Shown here one piece after another: positions 27,380 to 38,173 of a DNA stretch of 47,080 bases; within the stretch, counting starts at the first letter, position 1; the number at the start of each line of letters is the position of its first letter. The DNA comes from a virus. Position numbers and translations under genes: made by a program. Location of the stretch: positions 1-47,080 of the IMG/VR virus record IMGVR_UViG_3300045282_000196. One strand, 5' to 3'. Below the pieces are notes generated by a model. It ran no database searches and was not told where the DNA came from. It saw nothing but the letters and a program-made list of their open reading frames with translations.

Positions 27380-28390
27380 CTATTTGATCTTTTCGAGCCT
27401 TCTGATCCTGTCCCGCAGGATTTCATCGCGCTTCACGTATCGATCGATAAGCCGTTCGATCTTGTCTTCCGACCAAGCCATGATGCCGGCGATCTCGCGG
27501 ATGGTGAAATCGGCGCGATAGAAGTTCGTCGCGGCCGTGCCGCGCAGATCGTGGAAGTGCAGGTCGCGGCCGGCGAGCTTTGATGCGGTATAGGCCCTGT
27601 TCCAAGCCGTCCCGAAACCGTTGACTGTCCATGGCATGCCGCGCGTGGTCGTCAGAACTGTCGTCGCCTTCTTGGGAATCTCGTCGAGGAGCGTCCTGCA
27701 GGCGGAGGTCAGCGGGATCGTTGCCGTGCGCTTGCCGCGGCTCTTGCCGGTCCTGATCTCGATCGCCAGCTCGCTGACGCTCGACCAGCCAAGCTTGACG
27801 ATGTCGCCGCGTCGCAGGCCTGTATGGGCCGCCAGCTTCGCCGCCCAGACGATCTCTTTCGGCGCCGTGGCGCAGAATACCTTGAGGTCGTCAGGCGTCC
27901 ACACCAGCTCGGAGCGGTCGCTGCTGTAGAGGTTTGGGATGCCTTCGCATGGGTTGAACTGGATCGCACCCTCGGCCACCGCGAAGGACAGCACGCGCGA
28001 CAGGACCTGTTTGGCATAATCCGCCGATCGCGGCCGGTCCTTCCAGCGATCGCGCCAGTGGCGGATTGCGATGCGGATCTTCGGCCGGTCGAACTGGCGC
28101 ATCGACAGTCCGCCGAAATGTGTCTTCACCTCGTCGAGCCATGGCTGCCACACACGGCGGGTATCGTCGGCCAGCGCGGCGAACTCATCGCTCGCGCGAT
28201 AGAGTGTCACCCAAGCAGCGAGGCGGCCCCTGTCGACACCGCTGAGCGGATTGCGCGCTTCCTGGAACGAGGCGATGAACTCCGGCGAGCCAGGCGCGCC
28301 TTCGAGCCTCGGTCCGCCTCGCCAAGCGTAGTAATAGGTCTTTCCTTTGGACTGGACCTTGAACAGGCCCTTAAGCGCGACCATGACCAT
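27380..28390 (-). CDS. int: Tyrosine-type site-specific integrase
   Basis: This 336-residue recombinase would insert the phage at the tRNA-Gly gene. It has an N-terminal arm and core-binding domain and a catalytic domain with Arg193 (TGLRRGD), His280 and Arg283 (HDLRG) and the nucleophile Tyr318 (IDRYVKR). The second His of the usual set is not obvious ('MAWSEDKIE'). I used ATG 28390, overlapping the upstream gene; a further ATG at 28384 is equally possible. It is the last gene of the leftward operon. Confidence 0.93.
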   Translation of the reverse strand: MVMVALKGLFKVQSKGKTYYYAWRGGPRLEGAPGSPEFIASFQEARNPLSGVDRGRLAAWVTLYRASDEFAALADDTRRVWQPWLDEVKTHFGGLSMRQFDRPKIRIAIRHWRDRWKDRPRSADYAKQVLSRVLSFAVAEGAIQFNPCEGIPNLYSSDRSELVWTPDDLKVFCATAPKEIVWAAKLAAHTGLRRGDIVKLGWSSVSELAIEIRTGKSRGKRTATIPLTSACRTLLDEIPKKATTVLTTTRGMPWTVNGFGTAWNRAYTASKLAGRDLHFHDLRGTAATNFYRADFTIREIAGIMAWSEDKIERLIDRYVKRDEILRDRIRRLEKIK

Positions 28391-28592
28391 GTGCGTGAAG
28401 GTGTTCCTCCAGCTCCCTGTCAAGTTCGTCACGGTCATCCGGCAGAGTCAAATCCCGGCCCTCGGTCGTGATCAGGCGCACTCTGCCCGGCGTCACATCA
28501 ATCTCGGCCAGCTTTGCCCCGAGTGTGCGCATGAGGGTTGCCGCTCTGTCGAGATCGGCCTGCGTCACCTTTTGTGTACGATCCCGCTTCAT
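28371..28592 (-). CDS. Small acidic-basic protein upstream of the integrase
   Basis: A 73-residue helical protein ending in a His/Gly-rich tail (HLHAHGHGRA). The ATG at 28592 overlaps the upstream stop by four bases; the integrase start lies inside its end. Position beside the integrase would suit an excisionase, but no winged-helix pattern is clear. Confidence 0.55.
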   Translation of the reverse strand: MKRDRTQKVTQADLDRAATLMRTLGAKLAEIDVTPGRVRLITTEGRDLTLPDDRDELDRELEEHLHAHGHGRA

Positions 28593-31729: not shown

Positions 31730-32214
31730 GCAGCCTCCGGCATCTTAATCGGTGCAGGCATCGCGTCGGGCAGCATCTGCCACGCGATCAGGCCCTTCTT
31801 CGTTTCGCCGACGGCGCGGAACCCGGCCATCATGAAACAGAAGCCCTTCACCAGCTCGCCGCGGCGATGCACGCCGCGCACCTTCTTCGGATCGACAAAG
31901 GTCACGCAGCCGAGCGCTGGCACTTCGTAGAGCGTCTGCATGATGGCCATGGCTTCGCGGATCATGTCGGACGCGAGGGGGCCTGCATCTTCGTTCCGGA
32001 AGATTGACGTGACCCAGGCGCCGGCCCAGGCATGTTTCACGAATTCTGGCTTGGGGAAGCTGAGGCCGAATACGGCCTTCTGGTTGGCTGCGATCAGAAC
32101 GCGGCATGATCCAGCCGGCATGAACTGAGGCGATCCGGGCTTCTGTCGGCTGTAGTGCCGATCGGCGAGCAATCGCGCCGGCGTATGGAAGCGGTGAGAC
32201 GGGCGCCAGATCAT
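31726..32214 (-). CDS. Mom-like / GNAT-fold protein, putative DNA modification
   Basis: This 162-residue protein resembles phage Mom-like acyltransferases. It has RHYSR near residues 19-23 followed by G-S-P-Q-F, a central SIFRNE segment with a following helix, then 'VTFVDPKKVR' and 'AGFRAVGETKKGL', which fit the last strands of a GNAT fold. Mu Mom modifies adenines in phage DNA and protects it from restriction. Its ATG overlaps the stop of the cytosine methyltransferase gene by four bases, which fits a shared DNA-modification role. Assignment is from motif memory; an unrelated GNAT enzyme is possible. Confidence 0.6.
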   Translation of the reverse strand: MIWRPSHRFHTPARLLADRHYSRQKPGSPQFMPAGSCRVLIAANQKAVFGLSFPKPEFVKHAWAGAWVTSIFRNEDAGPLASDMIREAMAIMQTLYEVPALGCVTFVDPKKVRGVHRRGELVKGFCFMMAGFRAVGETKKGLIAWQMLPDAMPAPIKMPEAA

Positions 32215-34073
32215 GCGGCCCTCGCTTCCGCGCTGGCCGGGGCCGCGACCGGTTTCTTCTTCGGCGCGGCATCGGCCATGATGGCGCCGACACAGGCCTT
32301 CATCTTCGCGACCGAGACGGCGTTTCCGATCTGCTTGATCTGCTCGGTCTTGGTGCCGGCGAATTCGTAGGTCGCCTCGTCCGTTGTGAAACCCATGGCC
32401 GCTGCGAGCTCGTGCGGCTCGAGCATGCGGAACAGAATGTCGTAGTGCTGGCCATCGGAAACGGCCATCACCAGCCCTTCAGCGAGGTCGACGTGGCCGC
32501 TGGCGGCGATCGTCGGCGCCGGGGCGTCGACACTGTGCACGCGCGGCGCCTGCCCGCTGCGCTCGCCATGCTGCGCGGTGATGAAGGCCAGTTCGCCCCG
32601 ATGCGCACCGGTCACTGTCTGCAGCGGCTCTTCGTTCACGTCGCGGGGCCGGTGTTCGCCGGCGTGGGTGACCGGGATGACGATTCCGAACTCTCCGCCC
32701 TTGGCGGTCGTCATCGTCGGCACGGGATCGTCGACGCTGCGCGCCTTGTTGCCGCCATTGCCGTGCGTGACGGGCACGACGATGCCGAACCGGTCTTTGG
32801 TCGTGACCGTCGGCAAAGGTTCCTCGACGTTCTGACATCCGGTGCTGGCGCCGTAATAGGAGGAGACCAGCACATGGCTGTGCTTGGCGCATTGCGTCGG
32901 TGTCGGATCTTCCACGGAGCGCGGCGAGCCCTCGCCCTGGCGGGAGAGAATGAACGGCTCGACGATGGCCATCTGGCTGCCGCCCGCGGTGATTGTTGGT
33001 AGGGGCTGACCGACGTCTCTGGGTCTCGGGCCTGCACCGTCTTTGCCGTGCCGTGGCGAGACGATGACGGGCTCGGCCAGCATCGGCCGCGCGCAGCCTG
33101 GATGATCTTCCGCGGCAGCGCCGCCGGTCGTGATCGTCGGCAGCGGGTCATCCGTCGACCGTGGCGCGCCGGAATTGTGCTGTGATAGCGTGATGGGCTG
33201 CGCCAGGCCGATGTGCGTTCCGCCCGCCGCGATCGTCGGCACAGGCTGCTCGACGCTCTGCCCTGCCATGTGGTTGCGCAGGATGACGAGGAACGGCTCC
33301 GGCCATCCGAACTTCACCGCGCCGGCATGGATGCGCGCGAGCGTCTTCGGCGCCAGCGGCTTCTTGCGGTTGAAGATCGACTTGCCCTTGAGCGACCAGT
33401 CGATGATCTCGCGCGCAGGTCGCCATGGATGGACGCCCGGAAACAGCGCCAGCTTGCCGTCCAGCCGCTTCTGGTGCGTCGGCGCCGGGAAGATGACCGG
33501 CTTGCGATCGTTGCGCATCATGAGGATGAAGCGCTGGCGCGTCGTGGCGTCGCCGTAATCGGCGGCGTTCAGCTTCTTCCATTGCGGGTCGTAGCCGAGC
33601 CTGCGGATGGTCTCGATCCAGGCGTTGAAATATTCGCCCTTGCGGCTCTTGATCGGCTTGCCGGTGCGGGCGTCGACCGGCCCCCAGCCGGTGAATTCCC
33701 AGACATTCTCGATGATCGCGCGTTTCACGCGCAGTTCGGTCAGCCAGGTCACGATGTGCCATGGATCGCTGCGCTGCTGGTCGCTGGTCGGCTTGCCACC
33801 GCGCGCCACGGAATGGTGCGTGCACGTCGGCGAGGCCATCAGCAGGTCGAGATAGCCTTCCGGCACGATCAGGTGCGGCCGCACTGTCGCGATGTCCTGC
33901 ACATAGTGGCGAGCGTTCGGATGGTTCTTCGTGTGCGTCTCGATCGCGACCGGCCAGTGGTTGAGGCAGACCAGCTCCATCTCGAGGCCGAGTTCTTTGA
34001 GCGCACGCTCGCAGCCGGTGGACGAGCCGCCGGCGCCACAGAGAAGATCGGCCACGAGGATCTTGCGCGTCAT
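32211..34073 (-). CDS. C5 cytosine DNA methyltransferase with repeated variable region
   Basis: This 620-residue enzyme has motif I 'LLCGAGGSSTG' (10-20), IENV (121-124), TRQR (178-181) and, near the C-terminus, QIGNAVS (581-587). The expected catalytic Pro-Cys motif reads S-P-T-C-T (81-85), with one residue between Pro and Cys. Residues 270-525 hold eight repeats around [ST]-[VT]-[DE]-x-P-x-P-T-[IV]-T at about 278, 311, 358, 391, 420, 451, 485 and 519. It could methylate phage DNA against host restriction. The HNH gene overlaps its start by four bases and the Mom-like gene its end. Confidence 0.85.
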   Translation of the reverse strand: MTRKILVADLLCGAGGSSTGCERALKELGLEMELVCLNHWPVAIETHTKNHPNARHYVQDIATVRPHLIVPEGYLDLLMASPTCTHHSVARGGKPTSDQQRSDPWHIVTWLTELRVKRAIIENVWEFTGWGPVDARTGKPIKSRKGEYFNAWIETIRRLGYDPQWKKLNAADYGDATTRQRFILMMRNDRKPVIFPAPTHQKRLDGKLALFPGVHPWRPAREIIDWSLKGKSIFNRKKPLAPKTLARIHAGAVKFGWPEPFLVILRNHMAGQSVEQPVPTIAAGGTHIGLAQPITLSQHNSGAPRSTDDPLPTITTGGAAAEDHPGCARPMLAEPVIVSPRHGKDGAGPRPRDVGQPLPTITAGGSQMAIVEPFILSRQGEGSPRSVEDPTPTQCAKHSHVLVSSYYGASTGCQNVEEPLPTVTTKDRFGIVVPVTHGNGGNKARSVDDPVPTMTTAKGGEFGIVIPVTHAGEHRPRDVNEEPLQTVTGAHRGELAFITAQHGERSGQAPRVHSVDAPAPTIAASGHVDLAEGLVMAVSDGQHYDILFRMLEPHELAAAMGFTTDEATYEFAGTKTEQIKQIGNAVSVAKMKACVGAIMADAAPKKKPVAAPASAEARAA

Positions 34074-34462
34074 GGACAGATGTCCTCGTTCACGTCGCGC
34101 GCGTTCGATTGGTATGGCTGGAAGGTATTGCGGGATTGGAGTGGTCTGCCCTTTCGCGTTCTGATGCCGCGAGCCATCTTTTCCTGATGATCAGTCTTTG
34201 CGATCAGGGGCCGGTCACGGTTCGACGTTTTCCATCGATGACATGCGGGACAGGCGCAGCAGCAATTCTCAAGAGAATTGTCCCTGCTGTTCGCGTCCGG
34301 ATCGACATGGTCATATTCGACGCCGAGTTTCAGATCGCGATTGCAATGGACACCCTCGGGCAGGCCATAAATGGCACCGGCGGCCTCACAACGCCCGCCA
34401 GAGCGGTTCCACGCTGCTTCCTTCGTCTTGTCTGAAAACTCGCGTCGGCTCACGGCTGACAC
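34070..34462 (-). CDS. HNH endonuclease-like protein
   Basis: This 130-residue protein has an HNH pattern with zinc cysteines: GRCEA near residue 25, C40, 'VEYDHVDP' (Asp51-His52), Asn66 in SLENC and 'CPACHRWKTS' (71-80). A basic C-terminal tail follows. It starts 13 bases inside the end of the preceding small gene and overlaps the methyltransferase by four bases, so the two are translated together. It may be a nicking or homing-type nuclease or a partner in a modification/restriction pair. Confidence 0.8.
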   Translation of the reverse strand: MSAVSRREFSDKTKEAAWNRSGGRCEAAGAIYGLPEGVHCNRDLKLGVEYDHVDPDANSRDNSLENCCCACPACHRWKTSNRDRPLIAKTDHQEKMARGIRTRKGRPLQSRNTFQPYQSNARDVNEDICP

Positions 34463-34593
34463 GCCGTCGCGAGGAACAGGCAGAAGCCGACAAACGTCAC
34501 GAAGCCCAGAACGCAGAGGACTTCCTTGGCGAAGGGGGTCAGCAATGTCCCACGGTTGCGCCGGAAGCCGGCAAAGGGGATCAGGCCGTTCAT
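34450..34593 (-). CDS. Very small membrane protein
   Basis: A 47-residue protein with one C-terminal membrane segment ('VLCVLGFVTFVGFCLFLATA') and a basic N-terminus. Its ATG overlaps the stop of the Cys-repeat protein gene by four bases. The reading frame stays open far upstream through the 9-bp repeat, but that part is not coding in this frame. Confidence 0.55.
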   Translation of the reverse strand: MNGLIPFAGFRRNRGTLLTPFAKEVLCVLGFVTFVGFCLFLATACQP

Positions 34594-35330
34594 GCCTGCT
34601 CGCTCTCGGCGAGGCGCTTCATGTCGGCCAGCGCGTCTTCGTTGGTGTCGAAGAACCGGCACGGATTGATCGGCGATCCGCTCTCGCGATAGATCAATTG
34701 CGCGGCGAGAAGCGTTCCGTGGAAGCGTTCCAGCGCATATCCGGATTCGCCTGCCAGATGCACAACCCACCCGCCACGACAATGCGTTGTGTTGCAGGTA
34801 TGCCAGTCGCCCATGTTCAGCGCCTTCGGCTGTGACACGGCTTCGAAGACCTTGCCGTTGATGTTCTCGATCACCGGGATCGGCGGCACGCCTGGAGCGT
34901 CTTTGCTGTCGGGATTGCCCTTGAGGTCCTTCTTGTCGTCGAGCCACGCGATGTTGGAGCAGCCCGAGCAGTCCGAGCAGCCCGAGCAGTCCGAGCAGCC
35001 CGAGCAGCCCGAGCAGTCCGAGCAGCCCGAGCAGCCCGAGCAGTCCGAGCAGTCCGAGCAGCCCGAGCAGCCCGAGCAGCCCGAGCAGCCCGAGCAGCCC
35101 GAGCAGACCGAGCAGCCCGAGCAGCCCGAGCAGTCCGAGCAGCCCGAGCAGTCCGAGCAGCCCGAGCAGCCCGAGCAGCCCGAGCAGCCCGAGCAGTCCG
35201 AGCAGCCCGAGCAGTTCACGCAATTCTTGCAATCCACGAGGCTATCCAGTGCGCGCTGGGCAGCTTCTTTCGAGCCCCAATATTCGACGCTGCACTTGTT
35301 GCCGTTCGCATCTGTGAGCCATGTATTCAT
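34590..35330 (-). CDS. Cys-x-x repeat protein with a C-terminal domain
   Basis: This 246-residue protein has a short N-terminal domain ('GNKCSVEYWGSKEAAQ'), then 31 consecutive triplets of the form Cys-x-x (residues 34-126, nearly all CSG or CSD). A C-terminal domain follows with 'DWHTCNTTHCRGGWVVHLAG' and 'NEDALADMKRL'. The triplets are encoded by 9-bp repeats. A cysteine every third residue suits a regular solenoid or a metal-binding array. The N- and C-terminal domains look globular, so the repeat may be a scaffold or linker. I used ATG 35330, just before MNTWLTD. The function is unknown. Confidence 0.75.
   Translation of the reverse strand: MNTWLTDANGNKCSVEYWGSKEAAQRALDSLVDCKNCVNCSGCSDCSGCSGCSGCSGCSDCSGCSDCSGCSGCSVCSGCSGCSGCSGCSGCSDCSDCSGCSGCSDCSGCSGCSDCSGCSDCSGCSNIAWLDDKKDLKGNPDSKDAPGVPPIPVIENINGKVFEAVSQPKALNMGDWHTCNTTHCRGGWVVHLAGESGYALERFHGTLLAAQLIYRESGSPINPCRFFDTNEDALADMKRLAESEQA
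34957..35216. repeat. Tandem 9-bp repeat array in the Cys-repeat gene
   Basis: About 29 copies of GAGCAGCCC or GAGCAGTCC run without a break. On the coding (minus) strand they read [GGC or GAC]-TGC-TCG. Because the period is nine, all frames are open here, which produces false long ORFs on both strands. Copy number could vary between isolates. Confidence 0.95.
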
Positions 35331-35373
35331 GGTGTTTTCCTTTGCGATGGTTCGAGGATCGAGGGCGCGGTGG

Positions 35374-37113: not shown

Positions 37114-37806
37114 TCAGCAGCGCTTAAAGCAGGAGAAAACGTGGCCTACGACATGGAGCCGGTTCGGGTTCTTGATCGTCTGCGGCGGATATTTCGGGTT
37201 GTCCGATATCAGCGTCACGGCTTTGGTCTCAAGGTGCTGGGAAACCCTCTTCAGTAGCCCCTCGCCATCGAACACCATCGCGTAGATGCCGGGCGTTCCC
37301 AAGGTCCTGCGGCGCATGTCGGCCATGACCCAGTCCCGATCGCCGATGGTGTCTTCCATTGAATCGCCGCGGGCCTGGAAGATGGCGATGTCGCCCACAG
37401 GCGCATCGCTCAGCGTGCGCAGGAAATGCATGCTCATCATGTGATAGTCGACCGGTTCCTCGTCGTAGTTCACCGAGCCGGCGCCAGCTGCGAACCGGAT
37501 GTCGTAGACGGGTAGGCGGGCGAATTCCGATCCCGCGATCTCGACCAGATTGTCCCGTAAAACAGGCACTAAAGACCCAGCGGGTTCCCGGGCAGGGTCT
37601 TCCATGCGGCCTTTGCCGCTCTCGAGCCATTCGGAAGAAACCTTCAGCGCGCGCGCGATCGCGATCAGATATCGCGACGTCGCCGTTGGGCTGGCTTCCA
37701 AATGCTGGATCGCCTGAGGGCTGACCTTGATCGCTTTGGCGAGCTGGGTCTGGTTTAGACCCGCCTTTTCTCGTGCTTTTGCAACGCGCTCGCCGACCGT
37801 CGACAT
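37114..37806 (-). CDS. CI-type repressor with S24 (LexA-like) peptidase domain
   Basis: This 230-residue protein would hold the lysogenic state. Residues 5-60 form an XRE helix-turn-helix ('GLNQTQLAKAIKVSPQAIQH'). The C-terminal domain has the cleavage-type segment AAGAG (106-110), Ser149 in GDSM and Lys186 in LLKRVS, the catalytic pair of S24 self-cleaving repressors, so RecA-linked induction is likely. The ATG is at 37806; upstream extensions have no support. Three operator-like sites lie just upstream between it and the Cro-like gene. Confidence 0.92.
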   Translation of the reverse strand: MSTVGERVAKAREKAGLNQTQLAKAIKVSPQAIQHLEASPTATSRYLIAIARALKVSSEWLESGKGRMEDPAREPAGSLVPVLRDNLVEIAGSEFARLPVYDIRFAAGAGSVNYDEEPVDYHMMSMHFLRTLSDAPVGDIAIFQARGDSMEDTIGDRDWVMADMRRRTLGTPGIYAMVFDGEGLLKRVSQHLETKAVTLISDNPKYPPQTIKNPNRLHVVGHVFSCFKRC

Positions 37807-37818
37807 GGGCCGGAAGCT

Positions 37819-37885
37819 ACAAGCTGGCTTGTGGAATTGCCCTACAAGACTATTTGTTGACAAGAACAAATTTGTTTGTAACCCT
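37819..37885 (+). promoter_or_regulatory. Right operator-promoter region
   Basis: Three copies of ACAA-n6-TTGT occur at 37819-37832, 37844-37857 and 37866-37879. TTGACA (37857-37862) followed by 17 bases gives a -10 position at 37880-37885, where the sequence is a poor match. The third operator fills the spacer, as it does at the left promoter. The Cro-like ATG lies six bases after the -10 position. Confidence 0.7.
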
Positions 37886-37891
37886 TCACTC

Positions 37892-38173
37892 ATGCAAATC
37901 ACCGGCCTTCCAGCACTGAAGCGCGCCATCGAGATCATCGGGACACAGACCGCTGTGGCCCTGGTCGTCGGCGTTACGGCGCAGGCCGTCAGTGACATGG
38001 TGCGCAACGGCAAGCGCGTTCCTGCGGAATGGTGCCGCCCGCTGGAGATCGCGACGGCGAAAGCAGGCGAGAAAATTTCCGCGCATCAGCTGCGCCCCGA
38101 TCTCTTCGAAGCGCCGGCGAAGCGCGTGCGCCGTGCAAATCGCCCGCTGCGCACCGCCGAGGCCCGGGCATGA
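37892..38173 (+). CDS. Cro/YdaS-like transcription regulator
   Basis: This 93-residue protein has the YdaS/Cro-type pattern 'ALKRAIEIIGTQTAVALVVG' followed by 'TAQAVSDMVRNGKRVPAEWC', with a basic tail. It is divergent from the repressor and is the first gene of the rightward operon, which is the place of Cro. No Shine-Dalgarno sequence lies upstream of the ATG, and the predicted transcript would start at or near it. Its stop overlaps the next ATG by four bases. Confidence 0.85.
   Translation: MQITGLPALKRAIEIIGTQTAVALVVGVTAQAVSDMVRNGKRVPAEWCRPLEIATAKAGEKISAHQLRPDLFEAPAKRVRRANRPLRTAEARA

Follow-up and report, generated by a model that had tools for sequence, protein, structure and literature searches.

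A temperate tailed phage encodes in its early left operon a 246-residue protein in which a cysteine recurs at every third residue, 31 times in succession, between two folded domains. The array varies in length among related phage proteins, its cysteines are held by selection, and behind two unrelated C-terminal domains it stands where other proteins carry pentapeptide or hexapeptide repeats. On these grounds it is probably a β-solenoid with a three-residue, Cys-only core repeat.

The gene, its domains, and its setting

The window (the whole stretch of viral DNA that was analyzed; 47,080 bases) carries terminase, portal, major head, and tape-measure genes together with those for an integrase and a CI-like repressor, a combination that identifies the contig as a temperate tailed phage. 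The gene in question, P0001, has its ATG at 35330 and its stop codon at 34590-34592, and lies in a minus-strand block between repressor and integrase, i.e., the early left operon. Downstream of it come, in order, a short open frame and the genes for an HNH nuclease and a DNA methyltransferase. The features are as follows.

34590..35330, minus strand: whole gene P0001, 246 aa plus stop, with AAAGGA upstream
35338..35343, minus strand: putative ribosome binding site AAAGGA, read from the sequence, 7 bases upstream of the ATG
35232..35330, minus strand: N-terminal cap, residues 1-33 (MNTWLTDANGNKCSVEYWGSKEAAQRALDSLVD); AlphaFold2, alignments A1-A3, phrog_15341
34953..35231, minus strand: Cys-triplet array, residues 34-126, 31 x C-x-x; tandem-repeat call, register conserved across relatives
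34881..34952, minus strand: linker, residues 127-150 (NIAWLDDKKDLKGNPDSKDAPGVP), present in only part of the family; alignment A2
34593..34880, minus strand: C-terminal all-helical domain CD1, residues 151-246; phrog_31265, AlphaFold2, dN/dS
34779..34802, minus strand: HTCNTTHC motif, residues 177-184, a possible Cys/His site; conservation in 52 sequences
34070..34462, minus strand: HNH endonuclease neighbor; PF01844 (E 1.5e-4), phrog_333 (E 1.6e-8)
32211..34073, minus strand: DNA methyltransferase neighbor; phrog_116 (E 1.5e-66)
37114..38013, minus strand: CI-like repressor, same strand block, on the upstream side; phrog_4 (E 6.7e-41)
27380..28438, minus strand: integrase, at the distal end of this block; phrog_1 (E 4.9e-39)

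Counted on the assembled sequence, residues 34-126 form 31 C-x-x triplets without interruption; the gene, the repeat call, and the relatives described below all confirm this layout, which had first been noticed in a sequence-only reading of the window. The first two triplets are CKN and CVN and the other 29 are CS-x, with G (19), D (8), N (3), or V (1) closing the 31 triplets, for a net array charge of -7. Tandem Repeats Finder calls a 9-bp unit in 28.7 copies (93% matches, score 453), the sole large tandem array within the window, and the 31 units reduce to 6 distinct 9-mers. The other open frames of the array would read EQPEQS, LLGLLG, and similar. That the array might be another repeat read in the wrong frame was rejected; since the conserved cap and C-terminal domain share the Cys frame and the Cys residues are selected, the Cys frame is the true reading.

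Both ends had been described as conserved and globular-looking, and this holds. The flanks are under purifying selection: against the nearest relative (L003), dN/dS is 0.04 for CD1 and 0.22 for the N-domain, values that are approximate, dS being high. AlphaFold2 assigns a pLDDT of ~90 or more over most of the cap and C-terminal domain; the cap consists of short strands followed by a helix (89-95 over residues 1-40), with CD1 mostly at 89-97, falling to 71-78 at residues 171-190. The cap is conserved in alignments A1-A3 and matches phrog_15341 (E 2.2e-5), and a profile search carries the phrog_15341 match over cap plus Cys array (E 1.4e-21, residues 4-137). CD1 matches phrog_31265 (E 8.5e-24) at profile positions 149-248 of 264, the pentapeptide half of the profile being left unmatched by P0001.

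The CD1 motif is HTC-x3-HC-x-GGWVV (HTCNTTHCRGGWVV), correcting the x4 spacing reported earlier; across 52 sequences, H177 and H183 are invariant and C179 and C184 are at least 90% conserved. CD1 has no model in Pfam or NCBIfam and its fold has no match in the PDB, partly in line with the earlier suggestion of a new phage family, although the domain is already catalogued as phrog_31265, of unknown function. More broadly, array and domain both belong to catalogued families of unknown function, with single proteins bearing labels such as "cysteine rich." A C-x4-C-x-AG motif of CD1 (34593-34880) recurs weakly in phrog_889 (unknown function), and a wider family of small helical Cys-motif domains may exist.

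Relatives and copy number

More than 90 non-identical relatives share the same layout, with arrays of about 4-59 triplets; they come from phages both uncultured and isolated and from prophages in named bacteria. Conservation of the whole layout in so many relatives excludes a chance origin. It also contradicts the concern, raised in the sequence-only reading, that homologues might lack the repeat and that the array might be an artefact; an assembly or sequencing expansion was rejected, the array being present in independent contigs, isolates, and cultured phages. The length variability proposed there is borne out.

A query with the C-terminal part returned 76 viral-contig loci and 5 bacterial-genome loci, among the latter the isolates Kaistia dalseonensis and Methylobacterium variabile, and one with the N-terminal part returned 71 loci on contigs partly overlapping the first set; these counts are lower bounds, as the scans detect only sequences sharing short peptides with the query. 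In a further query, the L155 protein with a manually trimmed array, only the cap and first array residues matched. A relative is also carried by Flavobacterium phage FL-1, and the K. dalseonensis B6-8 genome contains relative L081. Among 65 distinct arrays the longest unbroken run spans 6-56 triplets; the shortest runs overall have 4 triplets (a few loci) and the longest has 59 (one locus). No preferred copy number modulo 2-6 was found in the array set. At least three cap types occur (TWLTDxNGN, TQIF..NGVS, and MRFES..GN). A search of 289 alphaproteobacterial genomes with phrog_15341 gave two matches, one being the query genome and one false, a result by which the Cys-triplet trait looks phage-borne. 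A distant match at L196 was discarded, as it resembles a misread frame of a collagen-like repeat.

Several loci depart from the common arrangement. Locus L026:2428-5460 encodes two Cys-triplet paralogues in tandem, one with 46 triplets and the other with 53; the third open reading frame behind them has a distant C-terminal domain (CGTAMCTAGH) after AGYTASD-type repeats, perhaps another swap. In L101, a cap and 17 Cys triplets lead into another kind of C-terminal domain (YTWLAIHEGGEWRIYAGCHTGATIEQARSHW), which may be a remote form of the second domain, CD2, described below. The array gene, or its junction with the C-terminal domain, is frame-broken in L002, L009, L017, L152, and L177, the broken genes including those of isolates (Flavobacterium phage FL-1 and Campylobacter phage CP20); such breaks might mark pseudogenes, errors in the sequencing, or genuine switching.

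Selection on the Cys register

In the 65 distinct first-search arrays, non-Cys residues occupy 3 of 1781 in-register positions, while position 2 of the triplet is ~16% non-Ser and position 3 can freely be Asp, Gly, Arg, Tyr, Asn, Ser, or His. These arrays are homogenized at the DNA level, their Cys codons usually being all TGC (almost all TGT in L058 and L063). The Campylobacter phage arrays (e.g., CKNCINCSNCKNCFDCEDC) mix TGT and TGC, with units only 41-44% identical at non-Cys bases; in P0004 and P0005, two divergent Campylobacter arrays, the units do not form DNA repeats. Across the divergent arrays, consecutive Cys residues are separated by 3 positions in 413 cases, by 6 in 7, by 9 in 3, and by 17 in 1; 10 of the 11 longer gaps are thus multiples of 3, though some are common to related phages and about six in-phase gaps are distinct. 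Where an in-register Cys is replaced in these arrays, Ser (7) and Leu (6) take its place, counts that include copies common to related phages. Closely related Campylobacter phages differ in array length at one site, between portal and DNA ligase. The register persists with mixed codons and diverged units; the triplet Cys is thus under selection, while copy number drifts.

The same data bear on a reading in which the array is a flexible or weakly structured spacer of free length, its Cys merely reflecting the DNA repeat. Near-identical genes do differ in copy number (42 triplets in L012, 37 in L013), and AlphaFold2 shows no fold for the array, as such a spacer would predict. Against it, Cys is retained in Campylobacter and Vibrio phages despite mixed codons and diverged neighboring residues, and position 2 varies freely where Cys does not, leaving the spacer unlikely.

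Exchange of repeats behind two C-terminal domains

The principal evidence for a solenoid is that the array changes places with known ones. CD1 lies behind Cys triplets in 97 open reading frames and behind pentapeptide repeats in 10, including a form on a Bordetella plasmid (WP_306230003.1) that matches Pfam Pentapeptide with an E value of 4.5e-57. The phrog_31265 profile is itself composed of pentapeptide-type repeats plus CD1, its first half being matched by pentapeptide proteins; P0001 has no match to the PF00805 (A(D/N)LxX) repeats of Pfam. On a CD1 tree, whose support is limited by its 100 columns, the change of repeat type takes two steps and the pentapeptide forms fall outside most Cys forms. 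A second domain, CD2 (phrog_20532/phrog_7964; GSR..T..Y..V.CGCF.G..EF; alignment A4), is unrelated to CD1 and occurs behind Cys triplets in L154-L156, behind hexapeptide-type repeats in 13 open reading frames (phages of Ruminococcus, Chryseobacterium, and Bacteroides being among the carriers), and, in Listeria phage LWP01, behind a stretch resembling pentapeptide repeats.

Repeats of the pentapeptide and hexapeptide kinds are well-known β-solenoids. Since the Cys array takes the place of either kind, and does so in front of two unrelated domains, it is most simply another solenoid, and from this exchange we infer that it would fold with its Cys in the core. Of the three options left open by the sequence-only reading (metal array, disulfide or thioether solenoid, or length-variable spacer), the solenoid as such, apart from any disulfide or thioether chemistry, is on this ground the best supported.

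CD1 pentapeptide proteins (L065-L078, L084) are found in several phages and on the Bordetella bronchiseptica plasmid, which also bears integrase, excisionase, and YqaJ genes. Among the CD2 phage proteins whose hexapeptide repeats (NARVSGDAxVYG) are hypervariable (L181, L184-L194), near-identical genes differ in copy number, a length drift like that of the Cys arrays.

Structure prediction and sequence comparison with solved structures

AlphaFold2 usually does better on pentapeptide proteins than it does here. The structure prediction proposed in the sequence-only reading is confident for cap and C-terminal domain, as described above; most of the array stays at a pLDDT of ~30, whether the input is 52 sequences or a gapless alignment of 22, and does not bear out the solenoid. 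In favor of one, the first array triplets show isolated bridge residues about every third position. The full P0001 model gave no significant fold match against the PDB or viral models. Outer residues showed no stable periodicity at 3, 4, or 5 triplets, and a lag-7 charge signal in the Campylobacter arrays was set aside as probably reflecting shared ancestry of related sequences.

The leading credible match among solved structures is an insect antifreeze protein (1ezg), a weak match with high composition-bias scores (E 0.003 for P0001, 0.009 for the Campylobacter array P0005, and 0.02 for alignment A3). Its chain repeats C-x-x S-x-x C-x-x A-x-x, with one inward residue per triplet, and it is taken here as a guide to geometry and does not prove homology. 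One relative, from a Vibrio phage, has a cap and Cys array and has been deposited as "insect antifreeze protein" (InterPro IPR016133); a Pfam search of P0001 gave no insect antifreeze match. An antifreeze function was rejected, as the arrays are without a Thr face: Thr fills 22 of 1761 positions 2 and is missing from the residues listed at position 3.

A proposed rod and the alternatives to it

We consider it moderately likely that P0001 is a phage accessory protein made of a cap, a Cys-core solenoid rod, and a small helical domain. In this model, the chain would wind into a tight solenoid with every third residue, Cys, pointing into the core, while the two residues in between (Ser, then mostly Gly, Asp, Arg, Tyr, or Asn) would face outwards. 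The Cys rod would replace the pentapeptide or hexapeptide β-helix of the sister proteins. Duplication or deletion of whole 9-bp units would vary rod length, with Cys retained by selection, and in the reducing cytoplasm the Cys would most likely be free thiols packed in the core. The rod would offer a surface or spacer that can be adjusted, specific binding of the partner would fall to the HTC-x3-HC domain, and the protein would probably act on a host or phage nucleic-acid process. Weighing against this rod are (i) the pLDDT of ~30 over the array, (ii) the lack of a preferred copy number and of a 4-triplet periodicity in the outer residues, (iii) antifreeze matches that are weak and composition-driven, and (iv) the partner swapping itself, which could mean that any length-variable linker suffices.

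The array might instead bind metal, with neighboring Cys thiolates holding Zn, Cu(I), or iron-sulfur as a metallothionein-like store or wire. CxxC pairs are common metal ligands, and the very high Cys content, strict spacing, and resemblance of the CD1 motif to a Cys/His site would all suit such a role. It is nonetheless doubtful: in divergent arrays Ser and Leu replace Cys in register, as in core packing; sister proteins have metal-free pentapeptide or hexapeptide repeats at the same place; and no metallothionein match emerged from Pfam, NCBIfam, or a PDB sequence search. A hybrid, in which the thiolate ladder in the solenoid core holds metal ions or clusters along an axis adjustable triplet by triplet, we regard as quite unlikely.

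The gene neighborhoods bear on the role of the protein. ERF genes are neighbors of 10, and YqaJ genes of 9 plus 3, of about 80 loci (some in both sets), counts that cover limited flanks (mostly ≤3 kb) and are uncorrected for background frequency; Pfam confirmed representative neighbors of both kinds. YqaJ genes also lie near the Bordetella pentapeptide relative, and the phiRM10 hexapeptide protein gene adjoins Gam-like and Rad52-type genes. Such neighbors would suit a protein of the early region devoted to recombination or host takeover. A RecT-like neighbor cluster was dropped, as Pfam gave no confirmation. In a phage contig, a CsrA-family regulator (PF02599; L033:2309-2500) lies directly upstream of the Cys-triplet gene, and small open reading frames similar to it cluster in two more loci.

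One possible function, compatible with the rod, is that of a DNA mimic, an acidic solenoid blocking a host nuclease or gyrase, as pentapeptide proteins such as MfpA do. The exchange with pentapeptide repeats, the net negative charge of the array in P0001 and 45 of 65 relatives, and the ERF and YqaJ recombination genes near relatives are consistent with mimicry; on the other side, 14 of the 65 arrays, L051 and L059 among them, carry a net positive charge, and we consider mimicry distinctly improbable.

Maturation of a Cys-rich substrate to thiazoles or thioethers is very improbable: the unit and its whole-triplet length variation match heterocycloanthracin, whose Cys-Xaa-Xaa repeat varies by whole triplets (Haft 2009, PMC2674419), and Campylobacter phages, alone among those covered, are rich in radical-SAM genes, but YcaO, on which such maturation depends, was found in 0 of 26 phage or plasmid records (window included), radical SAM in only 4 of the 26 (one weak, none in the window phage), and the array lies between two folded domains, not behind a leader peptide. 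No signal peptide is apparent by eye in P0001.

If the Cys-core rod is correct, the Cys triplet would be an extremely short solenoid repeat, with three residues and one fixed letter, which replaces helices of the pentapeptide or hexapeptide type in phages whose hosts range from Alphaproteobacteria and Flavobacterium to Vibrio and Campylobacter. It would offer a natural system for testing rod-length tuning and Cys-core folding in a reducing cell, and would re-file proteins now labeled "hypothetical," "cysteine rich," or "insect antifreeze protein."

Comparison with known systems

A literature search, which took in few subscription papers, found no account that treats the Cys-triplet arrays of phages as a class of repeat or describes them trading places with other solenoids, and the Cys proteins are not taken up in the published work on CP220 and IBB_35, two Campylobacter phages. 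The heterocycloanthracin precursor (PMC2674419) likewise gains and loses Cys-Xaa-Xaa repeats as units; it differs in its leader peptide, short Cys tail, and dedicated maturation enzymes, YcaO not being found here.

In insect antifreeze proteins of the Tenebrio type, the inward residues alternate Cys-Ser-Cys-Ala; the coils are 12 residues long, contain disulfides, and present ice-binding faces rich in Thr. In the proposed model, the phage arrays would resemble 1ezg in having an inward residue at every third position and Cys in the core. The phage arrays differ in having Cys in every triplet and almost no Thr, in their N- and C-terminal domains, and in showing no sign of export or ice binding.

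Members of phrog_15341 and the hypothetical proteins labeled "cysteine rich" in the Campylobacter phages CP220, CP21, and F379 have a homologous cap and Cys array; they are without a C-terminal domain, have diverged at all non-Cys positions, and are encoded between portal and DNA ligase. The hexapeptide proteins phiRM10 gp34 and MA9V-1 WIC41429.1 follow the same domain logic and have CD2 in common with L154-L156, but their middle is of the NARVSGDAxVYG left-handed β-helix type and CD2 is not the C-terminal domain of P0001. The phrog_31265 pentapeptide proteins (e.g., WP_306230003.1) differ in their A(D/N)LxG middle and N-terminal cap; like P0001, they have CD1, the order cap-repeat-domain, and a long, repeat-encoded middle.
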